This document shows positions 10,745 through 17,420 of a stretch of 27,989 nucleotides of DNA, piece after piece (the first letter of the stretch is position 1; every line of letters starts with the position of its first letter). Origin of the DNA: a virus. Location of the stretch: IMG/VR virus record IMGVR_UViG_3300048015_000353, positions 1-27,989 of that record; one strand, given 5' to 3'. The notes beneath the pieces are model-generated. The model did no database searches, was not told where the DNA came from, and saw nothing but the letters and a program-made list of their open reading frames with translations. The translations under genes were made by a program, and so were the position numbers.

Positions 10745-11739
10745 GAAGCCCTCCTGGCCAATACATGTTGCGTGCAGCCTCGTTTGCTGGACAAGCAGCG
10801 CTCAACCTCGTATATCTTGTATATTCCGTCAAAGTCGGTGTTTGTCAGAGTGAGTTGCAAAGGTGCTCGCGGCATTGTCACCACATCCGCCGGAGAAGCA
10901 TAAGTAATAATCCGTTCATGCTCGCCCAATTGTAAAGCTGTCCGTATAGCTAATTGCTGCGCATCCGTAAATGATAAGTTAGGTCGCAGAATGATCAGGT
11001 TGCCGACGGCGGACTCGCTTTTTGCATAGTTAGACTGTGCCGATACAGAATTTTGCGTTGCGCAATCCCAACTTTGAACCTCCACCGTAAATCCACTGGC
11101 GATGTCCAAGTCTCGATGCAACTTCATGGCGGAGCATTGTGCAGGTGTTATGGTCAAGGACTGGCTATCAGTTGCGCCGGATTGAAAGAACAAAGTACGG
11201 CCAAAAGTCCATACGTCAAATCCCTCCTGCTGCGCCAGCCAACATAGCACGTCCCATTCGGTAGTTGCACGACCGTGTTGGCTCATCGCCGACCGAGTGT
11301 GGCCGTTCTGGTAATAGCGACCAACGAGCGTGGCGGTTGGTGTCACGGCCACCGACAGACCGTGGCGTTCCGCTAACAAAATCGCGACGTCGCTCGATGT
11401 AAGATTCTCGAAACTTTCATGTGTTTGCGATCTAATAAATAGTGACGTCATGTCGCGGCCGGTAACGTGCAGATCAGCCCGGATTGGATCAACCCGCAGC
11501 GTGTCCGCGACGCCACTAATGAGCAATTGCCATGTTCCATCGATGTTCAGCAGAATTTCAACCCCGACGGGCAGTGCGGCCCAGTCCAACCCCCTCGCAC
11601 CATCCAGCGCTGCGCGGAATTCGAACCGATCTGCGGCGAAATAGGCGTTCGAGGCCACCTCGGCCTCAAATACTGCGTCCAACGGAGATCCATTAAGTAC
11701 AACTTGAAATTTGGGCTGCCGCACTTCACTCTGTAACAA
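10729..11739 (-). CDS. Baseplate hub protein, P2 gpD / Mu gp44-like
   Basis: A 336-residue hub protein. The N-terminal domain (QPKFQVVLNGSPLD....EAEVASN.YFAADRFEFRAAL) and the segment LRVDPIRADLHVTGRDMTSLFIRSQTHESFENLTSSDVAILLAERHGL match the late-control-D / gp44 family: 'sG..d.....p....l.v.GRD....lid', then a helix for the pore ring. The hub caps the tail tube and anchors the spike encoded next. It starts at TTG 11739, supported by AGGAG six bases upstream, and overlaps the X gene by 14 bases. The unusual start codon in a conserved gene is genuine rather than a calling artefact, because the N-terminal family pattern begins within ten residues. Confidence 0.85.
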   Translation of the reverse strand: MLQSEVRQPKFQVVLNGSPLDAVFEAEVASNAYFAADRFEFRAALDGARGLDWAALPVGVEILLNIDGTWQLLISGVADTLRVDPIRADLHVTGRDMTSLFIRSQTHESFENLTSSDVAILLAERHGLSVAVTPTATLVGRYYQNGHTRSAMSQHGRATTEWDVLCWLAQQEGFDVWTFGRTLFFQSGATDSQSLTITPAQCSAMKLHRDLDIASGFTVEVQSWDCATQNSVSAQSNYAKSESAVGNLIILRPNLSFTDAQQLAIRTALQLGEHERIITYASPADVVTMPRAPLQLTLTNTDFDGIYKIYEVERCLSSKRGCTQHVLARRASWTSS

Positions 11740-11911
11740 GAGCCACTCCTGTCACATTCTCCTGATCTGGGATCACAAGCGTGGTCAGCCCACAGATCCA
11801 TGGGTCGGAGATAGCATTAGCAGCGGCAATGGTATGCCAAAGCGTTGCGTCTCCCAGCGTTCGATTCGCGATATCGAAAAGATTACCGCGGCTAATGGTA
11901 ATCGTCTGCAT
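11726..11911 (-). CDS. Tail protein X, LysM-like
   Basis: A 61-residue protein. Almost the whole chain reads as one LysM-like module (ISRGNLFDIANRTLGDATLWHTIAAANAISDP..CGLTTLVIPD), the pattern of P2 gpX (tail_X family). That protein is needed for tail assembly and is encoded between U and D in P2, exactly the context here. The ATG at 11911 overlaps the U stop by one base (TGATG), and the 3' end overlaps the hub start by 14 bases. No better ribosome site is visible, so translation probably depends on coupling to U. Confidence 0.85.
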   Translation of the reverse strand: MQTITISRGNLFDIANRTLGDATLWHTIAAANAISDPWICGLTTLVIPDQENVTGVALVTE

Positions 11912-12588
11912 CAGAAGGCAAGCTGCTTATAGTTTGCCGTGGCACGAGCAACAAAACCGCGGGCGACGGCCGCCATTGCAAGATTGCCCGCGGCGCCGAC
12001 GGCGGTCGGAAGGTCCAATGATGCCAGTGCAATCGCGGACGCCTGAAGTGAATTATCTATCGTCTGCGAAACCGTGGTCAGCGCGATACTTGCGGAAGCA
12101 TAGGACGTTGTGCCATTCCCGTCGGACCCTGCTAGCATAAGTGCCGTCAATGCCTGAGAGACATCGGTATAGGCCGACGCGGTTGTAATATCTGTGATAA
12201 CTGCGTTGACGAGTGGAACAATTGCCGACGGGGCCGCGTTGTCTGGGTCATCGACTATTAGGCAGGTAATCTTATAGTGTATCCACCAACTATTATGGAA
12301 AGCGAATTGCAGGCTCTTTATCACGACTGAATATACAAACTCATCCCAGGCAAGGACAACAGGCTGGCCTGCAATGCGCAGAGCGTCCAATGCACGCGCA
12401 CGATACGTGGCATTTCCTCCCGAAAGCACACCTTTCCAGGCAATATCAGCGTCGTCGGCGCCGAGAGCGTCAACCACCCGAACGCCACCAGGCAGCCGAT
12501 ACACCGCCAATGATTGGGCGCCGCCAAAGCTAACGACCGAGGGTATTTCAAACGAAGCAAACGAAATGGTACCTAATGACAATGTCAC
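11911..12588 (-). CDS. Tail protein U-like (tail completion/terminator position)
   Basis: About 225 residues from the preferred start. The first third, F.SFEIPSVVSFGGAQSLAVYRLPGGVRVVDALGADDADIAWKGVLSG followed by ALDALRIAGQPVVLAWDEFVYSVVI, has the gpU-type pattern 'fGG.Q.l.v..l.GG.rv...lG.d..di.w.G.f.G...RA..L..lr..G..v.l.W'. The remaining part is Ala/Thr-rich and helical. It lies between the tape-measure candidate and X, where P2 has U. GTG 12588 sits two bases after the stop of the upstream gene and directly before the conserved block. A longer frame from ATG 12699 would overlap the tape-measure gene by 109 bases and adds a low-complexity leader, so it was rejected. Confidence 0.7.
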   Translation of the reverse strand: MTLSLGTISFASFEIPSVVSFGGAQSLAVYRLPGGVRVVDALGADDADIAWKGVLSGGNATYRARALDALRIAGQPVVLAWDEFVYSVVIKSLQFAFHNSWWIHYKITCLIVDDPDNAAPSAIVPLVNAVITDITTASAYTDVSQALTALMLAGSDGNGTTSYASASIALTTVSQTIDNSLQASAIALASLDLPTAVGAAGNLAMAAVARGFVARATANYKQLAF

Positions 12589-12590
12589 AG

Positions 12591-13730
12591 CTAAACGCCA
12601 ATCATCGCGCCGGTGGGTAATCTGCTGCGCGTCGGATCGAACGCACTGCCGCTGCACGGCGGGCGGGCAGCAACTTGCGCCAGCCTTTGCTCCATCCATC
12701 GCCCTAACAGGTTACCGTCAAGGTAGAGCTCTCCCGACACAGCAGCTTCACCCAAGGGTGCCGCAGCTGGCTGCTCGGCGGCCGGGGAATTAGCGCCAGT
12801 CGGTCGACCGCGCGTTGCGCCCACCTCAGAGAATGGCGCGTCGTGCATTTTATTCACGACAGAACCAGCGTTCTGAGCCATGATACGCTCCCATGCCGCC
12901 GGGGCGGTCGACTTTTGGCGTTTGGCGGCGGATATGCGGGCCAGGCCTCCGAACGCCCAATCCGGCCGCCTGAGCGCTGAAACACCGCCCGTTAATGGGC
13001 CGAAAGCATAGCCGGGCACACTTGGCGGCAAAGCCGACCCTCGGGTCACTTTAGTTACGCCGCCCGGATTGGCCCGGAACTCTGCGGCGTGCGCGGCGCC
13101 GCTCGCTGTTGCTCCTCTAAGCCTGCCCGCGGAGTGTTCGGCATTCTGTTCAATCCTCGTCGTCACTCGACACGGCGGCTGCACCGTTGTGGAACCGCGT
13201 CTTGCAACGAAGTTCACCTTAGGTTTTGCGGCAGCCTGCTGGTCGGCCGGACCCTGCGGCGTTACCATTGTACGACCATCGCGGCTGGCAAGAAATTGAG
13301 CCTGAGCAAGCTGCAGCTGCACCAATGACTGCGGCTCGCCCGCATTAGCGCGCGCCGCCCGTCTATTTCGGGGTGTCGCGGCATCTGGCGTTTGCAATAT
13401 GAACTCATTATGCCGCCCGGGCACGGCGCTCTTGCCGCCCCGTGGGCGTTCCGACGCAAGAATGGCATTGGCATCAGAAGACGGTCGCGCGCGAAGCTCA
13501 CTCTTGCGCACGACCGAAGATCCAAGCAGCCGGACCCGTAAACGCGGCATCGCAATGATTTTCTCGAGTTTCTTCAGCATCGCCGTGCTGTGTGCGAAAA
13601 TGGCAAGATCGTCCTTGGCTGAGAGAATGGCCCTGGCAATCCACCGGGGTGGGCGCTGCGCGAACGTTACACTCAAGGCTTTTCCTTTGGCAGACAGATT
13701 AGACGAGGCCCGGGCGCCCATAATGGACAT
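12591..13730 (-). CDS. Candidate short tape-measure protein
   Basis: A 379-residue, strongly basic, Ala/Arg/Pro-rich protein. No domain was recognised over most of its length, and no clear hydrophobic segments are present. The last ~45 residues, GELYLDGNLLGRWMEQRLA..A.RPP.SG..FDP....PTGAM, resemble from memory the conserved C-terminus of many tape-measure proteins ('vYLDG..vGr.....La..A'). It lies between the chaperone and U genes, where T is encoded in P2. Tape measures usually have 600 or more residues, so this would be very short. The ATG at 13730 has no good ribosome site, and a small inverted repeat lies just upstream. Alternative: an unrelated tail accessory, with the tape measure absent or encoded elsewhere. 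Confidence 0.5.
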   Translation of the reverse strand: MSIMGARASSNLSAKGKALSVTFAQRPPRWIARAILSAKDDLAIFAHSTAMLKKLEKIIAMPRLRVRLLGSSVVRKSELRARPSSDANAILASERPRGGKSAVPGRHNEFILQTPDAATPRNRRAARANAGEPQSLVQLQLAQAQFLASRDGRTMVTPQGPADQQAAAKPKVNFVARRGSTTVQPPCRVTTRIEQNAEHSAGRLRGATASGAAHAAEFRANPGGVTKVTRGSALPPSVPGYAFGPLTGGVSALRRPDWAFGGLARISAAKRQKSTAPAAWERIMAQNAGSVVNKMHDAPFSEVGATRGRPTGANSPAAEQPAAAPLGEAAVSGELYLDGNLLGRWMEQRLAQVAARPPCSGSAFDPTRSRLPTGAMIGV

Positions 13731-13790: not shown

Positions 13791-14302
13791 TTATTTGCCT
13801 AACCATTTCTGACTAGCCCAGTCATACTCCAGGCCATCAAGTTGTCCCATGGCAATAATCCACGCCGAGCGCTCTGTGTCAGCTAATGAGAAGGCAACAT
13901 CAAAAGGCACCCCGTTCCTAACCAGGTATAGGCAATCAATGAGATCGGGGTGCCGGCTCAGTTTCCCGTTTTGGCCAACTCCGCGTCGTCTGTCACGTCC
14001 TCGCTAGATGCAGCGGCAATGGCGATTAGCCCCTCGTCACCTAAGCGTTGAACAAGCGATTCCACTTGCGCCTCGGTTACTGGCGAAGGAACCGGCACAT
14101 TATCGATCGCAGTAACCGATACTGCAAGCAATGCCACGCCCAGGTAGGGGAGGTTTTGTGAGAGTTCCGGACCAAGTGCCTTGAACAGGCGCAGCCGATC
14201 GAGCGCCGAGACGCGACGCAAGCAAAGTTGGCGGCCGGTTTCATCGTACAGAACCGTGACCTTCATCGAATCGCTAATAATAAGACTGCTCGGCGTATCC
14301 AT
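13791..14302 (-). CDS. Tail assembly chaperone, frameshift product (E-E'-like / GT-like)
   Basis: Predicted -1 frameshift fusion of the short chaperone (13958-14302) with a 56-residue extension encoded to the stop at 13791. The zero frame reads ACG GGA AAC TGA; slippage on G GGA AAC moves reading one base back to CTG AGC CGG. The extension is open for 57 codons including the stop and reads as a sensible protein: LSRHPDLIDCLYLV, then NGVPFDVAFSLADTER, SAWIIAMGQLDG and YDWASQKWLGK. Tail chaperones of lambda (G/GT) and P2 (E/E') are made this way and set tail assembly stoichiometry. The fusion ends 60 bases before the tape-measure candidate. Slippage frequency cannot be judged from sequence. Confidence 0.8.
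13906..13967 (-). promoter_or_regulatory. Programmed -1 ribosomal frameshift signal
   Basis: Slippery heptamer GGGAAAC at 13961-13967 (minus strand), in the correct zero frame (G GGA AAC) and directly followed by TGA. After a six-base spacer (TGAGCC) comes GGCACCCCG (13946-13954), which pairs perfectly with CGGGGTGCC (13906-13914) across a 31-base loop. The loop itself can fold (CCTA / TAGG). Heptamer, 5-9-base spacer and stable stem are the textbook elements of -1 frameshifting. The open extension behind it supports function. Confidence 0.85.
13958..14302 (-). CDS. Tail assembly chaperone, short form (E-like / G-like)
   Basis: The zero-frame product is 114 residues: MDTPSSLIISDSMKVTVLYD, ETGRQLCLRRVSALDRLRLFKALGP, then an Ala/Val-rich helix (GVALLAVSVTAIDNVPVPSPV) and a C-terminal acidic segment (SSEDVTDDAELAKTGN). 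It sits between the tube and tape-measure genes, where P2 has E and lambda has G. The start is ATG 14302, overlapping the tube stop codon by one base (TGATG), with AGAGG six bases upstream. A longer frame to 14368 would overlap the tube gene by 66 bases. The last codons contain the slippery heptamer of the frameshift described separately. Confidence 0.8.
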   Translation of the reverse strand: MDTPSSLIISDSMKVTVLYDETGRQLCLRRVSALDRLRLFKALGPELSQNLPYLGVALLAVSVTAIDNVPVPSPVTEAQVESLVQRLGDEGLIAIAAASSEDVTDDAELAKTGN

Positions 14303-14730
14303 CAGAGCCTCTGCCGCTGTGTCGCATAGAATTCCAGCTTTTGCTTTACGCTTGTATCGCCACGCCATGAACCCGAGTTTGCCAATCTGAAAACAACACC
14401 ACTAAATTGGTATGTGGATGTCGAACCATCGACTTCGGTGATGTATTGATAGACGAGGCCAGCAGGCAAAGAGCCAGTCGTAAAAAATGCATTCTCGGAG
14501 ATTGCAATAAAATCATCAACCGCGCTGGTTCCGCGCTCCACTTCAAAGCTGCCTTCCCAACCTTTTGGCAACTCCGCGCCCATTGGAACGCCGTCCAACC
14601 GGTCCAGTCGAACCGACTGCGTAATCTGCCGACTCTCAAAGCCAGTAACATATGTGAGGTCGATTCGTCCAAACGGACCCATCACAACGAGCTGGCAGTC
14701 GCGGCCGATCGAGAAGGAATTAATTGGCAT
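14302..14730 (-). CDS. Tail tube protein
   Basis: A 142-residue beta-rich protein directly downstream of the sheath gene, the place of the myovirus tube protein (P2 FII or XkdM-like). Features: SIGRDCQLVVMGPFGRIDLTYVTGFESRQ, a loop with GVPMGAELPKGWEGSFEVERGT, and terminal strands GVVFRLANSGSWRGDTSVKQKLEFYATQR, which fit a tube domain with an exposed 'lPkGWeG.fe..R' strand. ATG 14730 is preferred over an in-frame GTG three codons earlier (14739), whose ribosome site would be too close; GGAAG lies ten bases before the ATG. Coupled to the chaperone by the one-base overlap at 14302. Confidence 0.8.
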   Translation of the reverse strand: MPINSFSIGRDCQLVVMGPFGRIDLTYVTGFESRQITQSVRLDRLDGVPMGAELPKGWEGSFEVERGTSAVDDFIAISENAFFTTGSLPAGLVYQYITEVDGSTSTYQFSGVVFRLANSGSWRGDTSVKQKLEFYATQRQRL

Positions 14731-14874
14731 GGTGCTCACGCTTCCGATCTACGGAGTGATAACAAAAATATTTCTGATATACGGGAACGGCACACCCGCA
14801 GCACGTACTCCGCCATGGCCGCGGCCATCAAGCGTATCATCAGAACCAAGGCAGGTACGCCCTCTTAATCGACA
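14731..14874. other. Sheath-tube spacer with a perfect palindrome
   Basis: A 144-base spacer in an otherwise packed operon. It contains a perfect 14-base palindrome, ATGGCCGCGGCCAT (14815-14828), just downstream of the sheath stop on the minus strand. No T-run follows, so it is not a classic terminator; it could be an mRNA end or processing structure that separates the abundant sheath and tube messages. A 34-codon frame (14736-14840, minus) ends in a GTGA overlap with the alternative tube start but has a weak ribosome site and is not called as a gene. Confidence 0.35.
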
Positions 14875-16440
14875 CTAGGCAGTTGGCAGAATCTGACGCT
14901 GCACAACCACCGTTTGGCCGCCCTCGACATTAACGATAAATATTTCATTTATGCCCTGGAATTGCACCTGAGCATCGCTCTGTACATATCCGAGGCTGGT
15001 GCGGCTTTGAGGATTATTGCTGGCGTCGCAGATGACGGAGAAGGGCAATGACCCGTCGGTACTGCCGAGAATGCCTTGGCCGAATAAATTGTACAAATAG
15101 CTCAGTTGCGTTGCGCGAATTCGGTTAAACAAACCTGTATTGATCACTTGCCCGACGAATTGACCCATTCCGGCTGCCAGCGTTGCGGCTATGAAGTTCG
15201 TCATTCGCGTATAATTATCGCCATTTGTAGCTGGATTACTGGATGTATTGTGTCCGCAGCGAACCCCCCAGTAGGCCCCTCCGGGCTGCGGGTTAGCGAT
15301 CACATCGATACCAGTTTGAAACAGCACTTGAAGTTCGGCGTCGCTGTATACAGAAGACTGGCCGCTTCCCGGCGTCCCTGCGCTTTGCGATCCAACGATG
15401 TTGTAAAGTGGCTTATTTAAACTCGATTGTTCTGGCGATAAATTTCCTAGGACACCAGCGACAAACCCCTGGGGAGAGACGAGTCGAATAATATTGTTGG
15501 TCTGGTCAAACCAGTAAATCCAGTCGCCAAACATCATTTTTGCCGAAAATGAGTCCAGCCCGGACTGCTGCAATACCGTCACAGCATTGGTAATCGTATC
15601 GCCAGCTGGTCCGACAAGTATCATGTATAATCCCTCGGACGCGCCAAAATTCGCCTGCACAACCCATTGCGTTGGGTCGTCCGAGTCACATAGCACACCG
15701 ACGCTGCAACCCTGTCCTCGCAACGCGTACATGCCCTCTCGCGGAACAGTGTCTTGGCCAACCAGAGTTGCTGCGGTGACTCCGGCGGCCCCGTCGGTCC
15801 CACCCAACAATGGCTGACTTGAAATATGCGTTGGCGGAGTGGTTGTGGCAGATCCAATACTGGCGACAATGAGTTGGGAATTTCCCCGCAGCGGACCTTG
15901 GCCGTCATTCACGGCGCTTACCAGGTTCTGCCAAAATTGCGCCGGCGTGGGTGCTTGCAGATTATCAAATACTTCTGGAAGTTGCCCCGGCATCGTGACC
16001 GTAAGGCGCCACGTATTGATGGCCGAACCTGCGCCAAGCGACACCGCCAGCAAATTCCCCGAGGAACCGGTGAACAGCGCGGTAATCATAACTGCAAACG
16101 CCGCGTTGAGCAATCCAAACGCGTAGGTAGCCGACGTGTCAGTGCCGTCCGTGACGCGTACGCAGCGGAAAGCCGAGGCACCCTGTTGCACGGCCGTCGC
16201 AATATTAGTTCCCATATCGTATTTGCGTGCGATGACGGGGCCAAATGAGGATGCAAAGTCTGCCATAGTGCCGATAATTACAGGCTGATTTACCGGACCC
16301 CAACTCGCGGTGCCAACAATCCCGATCAGGTTTGTTGGCACGCCATTCAGGACAAGGTTTTGTGGCGGCACGATCTGCACGTAAAGGTCCGGCACAACAA
16401 GTGCCGTTGTGTTTAAGCTGCCTTGCTGGTAAATAGGCAT
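14875..16440 (-). CDS. Tail sheath protein
   Basis: A 521-residue contractile sheath protein. N-terminal: MPIYQQGSLNTTALVVPDLYVQIVPPQ, then LIGIVGTASWGPVNQPV and SFGP....DMGTNIATAVQQGASAFRCVRV, the sheath pattern of 'vG....Gp.n.pv', '..fG' and 'c.rv'. C-terminal: WGVRCGHNTSSNPATN, NYTRMTNFIAATLAAGMGQFVG and NTGLFNRIRATQLSYLYNLFGQGILG, the conserved sheath C-terminal domain. Its contraction drives the tube and spike through the envelope. ATG 16440 has AGGAG eight bases upstream. The frame stays open to 16614, but that extra stretch has no conserved sheath features and is not included. Confidence 0.9.
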   Translation of the reverse strand: MPIYQQGSLNTTALVVPDLYVQIVPPQNLVLNGVPTNLIGIVGTASWGPVNQPVIIGTMADFASSFGPVIARKYDMGTNIATAVQQGASAFRCVRVTDGTDTSATYAFGLLNAAFAVMITALFTGSSGNLLAVSLGAGSAINTWRLTVTMPGQLPEVFDNLQAPTPAQFWQNLVSAVNDGQGPLRGNSQLIVASIGSATTTPPTHISSQPLLGGTDGAAGVTAATLVGQDTVPREGMYALRGQGCSVGVLCDSDDPTQWVVQANFGASEGLYMILVGPAGDTITNAVTVLQQSGLDSFSAKMMFGDWIYWFDQTNNIIRLVSPQGFVAGVLGNLSPEQSSLNKPLYNIVGSQSAGTPGSGQSSVYSDAELQVLFQTGIDVIANPQPGGAYWGVRCGHNTSSNPATNGDNYTRMTNFIAATLAAGMGQFVGQVINTGLFNRIRATQLSYLYNLFGQGILGSTDGSLPFSVICDASNNPQSRTSLGYVQSDAQVQFQGINEIFIVNVEGGQTVVVQRQILPTA

Positions 16441-16610
16441 CGTGGAATCTCCTGCGGGCTGGGTAGCGTTGAATTCGTTCTTGCATTCACACTCCCTCGT
16501 GGGAGGATGGTTAACCGCCAGCACGCTTTCCCATAGCGATATAAAGAGAAGAATATCCGAGAAATGATAACGTTCGGACACAATGAGCAATCGCGGCTCA
16601 TGGGGGGCCT

Positions 16611-17420
16611 TCACGCGTAAATTGTGGTTCCATTGAAATCAAGATCGCCAAATAGCATTGTTGGATTTATGCCGGCAATCGTTGTTCCGTACTCCACGTC
16701 ATAGTTCAAATCACGACGGTAGATCGAAGCTGCCTGGTCACCATCATGGTTCGCGGTTGAATGATACCGTAGTCGCCCGCCTGTGCCATCGGCCAGGCTC
16801 AAGAAGCTGATTTGCGCAAGGGAGCCAATAATCGCTTTTGCAACGAGATCGCGCACGAAGGGCGTCGGCGCCCATATTGCAACTTGAAACCGTTGCTCCT
16901 GGCGACAGCACTCCTCCAAAGTGCTTACGCCAGATACGCTGCGCGCTGTAAAATGAACCGCGCCGGGCACGGTGATCGTGGATCCAACCAACCAACAAAT
17001 CGTGGATGTGCGAATGGCATCCGCCAAGGCGGCCGCGACCAAACCGGCGGCGTCTCCCGCTTGAGCTTGATAGGTATATGCCTGCTGGTTTACAAGCACA
17101 CCGGCTATATCACCGCTTGCCGCAATCCCGAAGAACGTCGCGGAGTTGCCAGACACGGTTACGGTTAAGCTTGGCGCACAGCTTAAATTGGCAATCTGCA
17201 CACCCCACCGCGTGGTGTTTTTTGTCGCATTTGCCAGCGGACAAACGCTTACGTCTACCGTTCCGGTCGTCCGATCAATTGCAAGGGTGGCATTTGTCGG
17301 TTGCCCTCTGTAGATGCGCCATGCGACACCCAAAGCGCTGATTTTATCAGCCCCCGAAGGGTAAGCTGAAGAAATTATTGCGTCAACCAGAGCCTGTTCT
17401 ACATCTGCAAGTTCAGCCAT
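16611..17420 (-). CDS. Neck/completion protein of unknown family
   Basis: A 269-residue protein between the head genes and the sheath. It opens with MAELADVEQALVDAIISSAYPSGADKISALGVAWRIYRGQP, an initial helix and a position typical of tail-terminator or tail-completion proteins. The middle is beta-rich (TLAIDRTTGTVDVSVCPLA; SLTVTVSGNSATFFG), followed by an Ala-rich helix (AGDAAGLVAAALADAIRT) and a basic stretch (ECCRQEQRFQVAIWAPTPFVRDLVAKAI). It is not assigned to a family from sequence alone. The start codon lacks a strong ribosome site, and 169 bases separate it from the previous gene, more than elsewhere in the operon. Confidence 0.65.
   Translation of the reverse strand: MAELADVEQALVDAIISSAYPSGADKISALGVAWRIYRGQPTNATLAIDRTTGTVDVSVCPLANATKNTTRWGVQIANLSCAPSLTVTVSGNSATFFGIAASGDIAGVLVNQQAYTYQAQAGDAAGLVAAALADAIRTSTICWLVGSTITVPGAVHFTARSVSGVSTLEECCRQEQRFQVAIWAPTPFVRDLVAKAIIGSLAQISFLSLADGTGGRLRYHSTANHDGDQAASIYRRDLNYDVEYGTTIAGINPTMLFGDLDFNGTTIYA

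Follow-up and report, generated by a model that had tools for sequence, protein, structure and literature searches.

The locus described here raises the question of whether a short open reading frame (ORF) in a viral tail gene cluster, which stops at a TGA directly behind the heptamer GGGAAAC, is also extended into a longer protein by a change of reading frame. The ORF lies on the minus strand of the window, i.e., the whole 27,989-nucleotide stretch of viral DNA that was analysed, and a first-pass annotation had proposed a −1 frameshift in a tail assembly chaperone gene at this place. Our analysis makes it very probable that the gene uses a programmed −1 frameshift of the gpG/gpGT type. This reading follows from the anatomy of the junction, the conservation of the heptamer, the stem and the coding capacity of the −1 frame, and the chaperone-like predicted fold; from these we infer the slippage itself, its rate and the roles of the products. 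The features of the locus are:

14875–16614, minus strand: tail sheath (phrog_23, tail sheath, E = 1.6e-47)
14302–14739, minus strand: tail tube by position, between the sheath and the chaperone as in Mu (phrog_12993, unknown function, E = 7e-41)
13958–14302, minus strand: short form of the putative tail assembly chaperone, 114 amino acids, ATG at 14302 and TGA at 13960–13958
13961–13967, minus strand: slippery heptamer G_GGA_AAC in the frame X_XXY_YYZ, with the zero-frame TGA directly after it
13955–13960, minus strand: six-base spacer, starting with the zero-frame TGA; the distance is equal in relatives
13946–13954, minus strand: 5′ arm of the putative stimulatory stem, GGCACCCCG
13915–13945, minus strand: loop of 31 nt, with a small inner helix predicted within it
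13906–13914, minus strand: 3′ arm of the putative stimulatory stem, CGGGGTGCC, with nearly invariant GGG and GTG codons
13791–13961, minus strand: −1 frame extension, 56 codons and TAA (13793–13791); the fusion would have 170 amino acids
12591–13730, minus strand: gene of 379 codons, tape measure by position only; with matches to portions of the corresponding gene in relatives

The short-form ORF, whose ATG shares bases with the stop codon of the tube ORF, ends with AAA ACG GGA AAC TGA. The −1 frame is open from 14003, i.e., it overlaps the short-form ORF, and its translation from 13961 gives the 56 residues LSRHPDLIDCLYLVRNGVPFDVAFSLADTERSAWIIAMGQLDGLEYDWASQKWLGK. The two arms of the stem are exact reverse complements over 9 bp, and the stem starts 6 nt past the heptamer. 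All of the coordinates in the first-pass annotation (heptamer frame, TGA, 6-nt spacer, 9-bp stem, 56-residue −1 extension and TAA) were correct. On the minus strand of the window, GGGAAAC or AAAAAAC directly 5′ of a stop occurred once against a chance expectation of 0.09, and at random sites, a perfect 9-bp stem followed as closely in 0.17% of cases. The fold of the junction as a single sequence was only moderately better than those of its shuffles (z = −2.2), and therefore, the weight was placed on the comparison of relatives.

The identity of the short form was examined by family profiles and by structure prediction. It matched phrog_20383, listed with unknown function, with an E value of 1.1e-19, and the same family was matched by 16 of 16 members. 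A weak match to phrog_508, “tail assembly chaperone”, was obtained for five of the 16 (best E = 0.0028), and no Pfam TAC family was found in any of the 16. Scans of the short form against Pfam and NCBIfam gave nothing usable. The AlphaFold (AF2) model of the short form had a pLDDT of 87, and its best PDB match was the HK97 tail assembly chaperone 2ob9 with a probability of 0.77, a match with a Foldseek E value of only 0.14 and a TM score of about 0.45; the other matches listed had probabilities of 0.18 or lower. The matches of this model in the viral library BFVD include named chaperones. The gene order of sheath, tube and short form and the predicted fold, with the HK97 chaperone as the top PDB match, fit a tail assembly chaperone and support the original reading of this gene.

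In the profile scans, including Pfam and NCBIfam, the gene at 12591–13730 had no family match. It has a low-complexity look, and the same place in relatives appears as gaps of roughly 0.7–1.7 kb; in the distant relatives L107 and phiKX2, the tape measure position is occupied by genes of 636–742 codons. Further along, two overlapping ORFs at 11726–12699 correspond to the N-terminal and C-terminal parts of phrog_21362, as if split, and the second of them carries a LysM-like end. The major head protein of the window belongs to phrog_1357 by profile. From gene order and sequence, other genes of the window are presumably those for terminase, portal and scaffold, and from its translation we take the gene at one window end to be ligA. 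A conserved insertion beside ligA was ruled out, because no ligA was located near the chaperone gene in 20 other genomes.

Homologues were collected from genome collections, viral collections and genomes of the host bacterial family, and 220 usable sequences, or 154 without near-copies, were obtained. The first-pass annotation had named a missing heptamer, or random sequence past the stop, in homologues as evidence against a frameshift. We found a conserved extension and an in-frame heptamer in 216 of the 220, in a sample that favours members keeping the extension, because most of them were retrieved by patterns from the conserved extension. A profile search of genomes, independent of these patterns, led to the same result at the loci that were inspected. 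The heptamer was GGGAAAC in 180 homologues and of the A6 type in 36 (AAAAAAC in 34, AAAAAAG in one and AAAAAAT in one), and the frame relation was −1 in all heptamer-bearing homologues. The zero-frame stop was located directly after the heptamer or 18 nt on, and 3 nt on in two rows. On a tree calculated from an alignment without the junction residues, the GGGAAAC and A6 types were exchanged at least five times, despite the difference of three bases and of the encoded residue (G or K). The four rows without a canonical heptamer represent two distinct cases. L178 and L179 lack the canonical heptamer and retain the −1 geometry. In L107 (2435–2995), both the heptamer and the stem are gone, and the extension stands as an in-frame, separate ORF that has an ATG of its own and lies behind TAGGCTATG; this is a natural loss of the frameshift. 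Since hundreds of related phages keep the signal, it is almost certainly real.

These homologues also bear on two other explanations of the frame change. A sequencing error or a decayed gene is conceivable in principle, because single-base indels occur in metagenome contigs; one such contig, L052, was omitted because of a one-base deletion in the heptamer, which we read as an error or a fresh mutation. However, the arrangement recurs in 216 homologues, which come from numerous species, isolates and assemblies, and this conservation already refutes error and decay, to which we assign a negligible probability. The frame could also be changed by slippage of the RNA polymerase and not of the ribosome, as the A6 runs at the site in some relatives would allow. 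The GGGAAAC of the window and most members, however, has no long homopolymer run, and what it has in common with the A6 type is the tandem re-pairing of tRNAs in the −1 frame. Polymerase slippage, which in addition needs no positioned stem, is extremely unlikely in our judgment, and we retain ribosomal frameshifting.

The extension was then compared among relatives as a protein. For 1500 pairs, the pN/pS ratio across the extension was 0.33 when read in the −1 frame, whereas the two remaining frames gave 1.26 and 1.86; for the window alone, the ratio of the extension was 0.37. Stops were detected across the extension in none of 140 sequences in the −1 frame, and in 140 and 111 of the 140 in the other frames. 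These values, which come from sequence comparison, indicate that purifying selection acts on the extension in the −1 frame only. The conserved residues include VPFDVAF and tryptophans near the end. The AF2 model of the extension is small, helical and confident (pLDDT 86); a fold search of this model against the PDB found no match, and Pfam and NCBIfam scans gave nothing usable.

A protein under selection could also be made without a frameshift, as a separate small product that starts internally in the −1 frame at the conserved GTG of codon 18, or by coupling at the stop. The GTG was present in all 145 sequences checked, the extension is annotated as a separate ORF in phiKX1 and phiKX2, and in L107 it truly is one, with an ATG. 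A start at this GTG would, however, leave codons 1–17 untranslated, and these are the most conserved part of the extension, with a mean identity of 81% as compared with 64% for the rest, and with mostly synonymous changes (pN/pS 0.20). Moreover, only 41 of the 145 sequences have a Shine-Dalgarno-like motif ahead of the GTG, the GTG is located inside the stem, and an internal start leaves the heptamer unexplained. We consider this explanation quite unlikely, and the programmed frameshift remains the preferred reading.

The stem was the third element that was compared. Its codons are frozen: Gly is GGG in 71 of 71 sequences, Val is GTG in 72 of 72, Pro is CCC in 65 of 72, and Arg is CGG or AGG only, while in the Pro codon that follows, any of the four bases occurs at the third position, which falls just beyond the stem. 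Among 158 distinct sequences, all nine pairs were formed in 152 and eight pairs in the other six. In L127, L133 and L158, which belong to one clade, a C-G pair is replaced by G-C, by a change from P to A on the 5′ side and a silent change on the 3′ side. Diverged relatives (plasmid records of Pantoea, Aquitalea, Rhodovastum and Paraburkholderia, and the contigs L188–L190) form 7 or 8 of the 9 pairs at the same codon positions from different sequences, for example GGACGTTG with CAACGTCC and GAACCCCG with CGGGGTTC. In an alignment of 20 such sequences, which were chosen to contain the stem, 94.4% of the cells pair, and both sides have changed in five of the nine pairs. The cells changed on both sides numbered 18, as compared with 3.7 ± 1.6 in shuffles, and the covariation score was 0.379 as compared with 0.138; when the partner was slid by 1–3 bases, the pairing was at most 48%. 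The subclade L180–L187, which was left out of this alignment, keeps the A6-type heptamer, has no stem in the conserved register and shows folding z-scores near zero. In these comparisons, the stem is conserved as RNA, with its codon register fixed.

A conserved hairpin could also be an intrinsic terminator or another RNA element, with the −1 frame as a by-product, and in the window the stem is indeed followed by TTTT. This T run is not conserved, as seen in the free third base of the Pro codon past the stem. The loop of 31 nt, the absence of any matching Rfam family for the hairpin, and the selection on the −1 protein likewise argue against a terminator, and we give this explanation almost no weight as compared with a stem that stimulates frameshifting.

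In the proposed mechanism, most ribosomes would end at the TGA after G_GGA_AAC and produce the 114-amino-acid chaperone, and the 9-bp stem located 6 nt downstream would delay a minority of them. On the delayed ribosomes, the tRNAs on GGA and AAC would move back by one base and pair with GGG and AAA, so that the TGA is bypassed and translation continues in the −1 frame to give the 170-amino-acid fusion. If lambda gpG/gpGT is taken as the model, coating of the tape measure protein would fall to the short part, and recruitment of the tube subunits to the extension. Phage chaperone fusions of a different cluster, tested by experiment, gave a rate of 6–7% (PMC3711429). For mammalian ribosomes, G_GGA_AAC and A_AAA_AAC rank with the most slippery sites; A_AAA_AAG is a far better site in E. 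coli, an organism with a single lysine tRNA, and heptamers ending in AAC shift poorly there as compared with those ending in AAG (PMC5009743). Because of this poor shifting on AAC in E. coli, the rate may be low, or may depend on the stem and the host tRNAs.

The lysine tRNAs were searched for in 20 genomes of the host family. An exact match to the tRNA-Lys(CUU) pattern was found in 17 and to the UUU pattern in all 20, and ARAGORN confirmed the tRNA-Lys loci submitted to it (three and two). The near absence of AAG-ending sites may arise because the CUU tRNA would read AAG, and the distribution of tRNA-Lys(CUU) fits such avoidance without proving it. It is possible, although we lean against it, that the shift needs both an A-site AAC and the stem because a dedicated tRNA-Lys(CUU) in most hosts stops AAG-type heptamers from slipping; if this were true, the choice of slippery sites in phages would follow the host tRNA set. 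The arrangement of an A-site AAC with a stem is better known from animal viruses. Two features make this system mildly unusual: heptamers that end in AAC, in a set of hosts most of which have tRNA-Lys(CUU), and the deeply conserved stem.

The −1 frameshift of lambda gpG/gpGT and its counterparts in long-tailed phages have been described (Xu, Hendrix and Duda 2004; reviewed in PMC5009743). As in lambda, the gene of the window is located beside a gene placed as major tail or tube gene and before the putative tape measure position; it has a −1 extension, and its short ORF carries a heptamer suited to tandem slippage close to the 3′ end. The lambda heptamer is G_GGA_AAG, whereas that of the window is GGGAAAC and its family has a conserved covarying stem; the comparison of the two is one of mechanism. 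For gp18/gp19 of the Burkholderia phage KL1, a −1 shift on GGGAAAC directly before TGA, with a downstream stem-loop, has been predicted (PMC3483164). KL1 agrees with the window in all of these features, but it is a siphovirus with a longer extension, and its stem comes from prediction. P2 gpE/E′ and Mu gp41 share the contractile tail and the gene order, and have the two chaperone forms that are proposed here, although the Mu shift is annotated as −2. In hhalign comparisons, the chaperone showed no similarity to P2 gpE (0.1% probability) or Mu gp41 (2.4%); therefore, P2 serves as an analogy of mechanism and not as a shown relative.

The Komagataeibacter phages phiKX1 and phiKX2 (LC644975 and LC644976) have a homologous gene (33% identity) with the identical 9-bp stem, but their heptamer is of the A6 type (AAAAAAC before TGA) and two hypothetical proteins are annotated. 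Mitomycin-inducible contractile-tailed particles were reported for the strains (PMC8566455), and frameshifting is not mentioned in the text of that paper. The kind of system is thus already known from lambda G/GT and its relatives, and GGGAAAC-TGA was predicted earlier for KL1. What is new is that an unannotated family belongs to this kind, that its covarying stem holds a fixed codon register, and that AAC sites are used almost exclusively.

Gene callers had been expected to miss the extension. This held for four of four plasmid records, in which it is unannotated (the gene table describes itself as incomplete), but not for phiKX1 and phiKX2, whose GenBank entries show it as a hypothetical ORF of its own. 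Our analysis leaves the understanding of frameshifting as such unchanged. For phrog_20383, on the other hand, it provides a likely function and a second product, and the covarying RNA motif could serve in automatic searches for genes of this type and in tests of the influence of host tRNAs on frameshift sites.

The chaperone profile matched 125 of 299 genomes of the host family (the family of G001). As an observation in itself, this is a very high prevalence for one prophage type. In five genomes, the chaperone gene lies in a cluster of about 26 kb between groES and ppk, and a sixth is alike in the part examined (G096, G196, G263, G153, G232 and G288; loci L257–L263, L245, L248 and L253–L256). 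This cluster is related to the phage genes of the window, extends from terL to fibres and spanin-like genes, and contains head and contractile-tail genes with the frameshift signal intact; the repressor and TerS of the window had no match in it. No tyrosine integrase was found within 40 kb of the chaperone gene, among the matches listed, in ten element-bearing genomes. In a genome with the element elsewhere, groES and ppk are close neighbours. The cluster is a candidate for a vertically kept, possibly domesticated (gene-transfer-agent-like) contractile-tail element, and it may be more novel than the frameshift finding.
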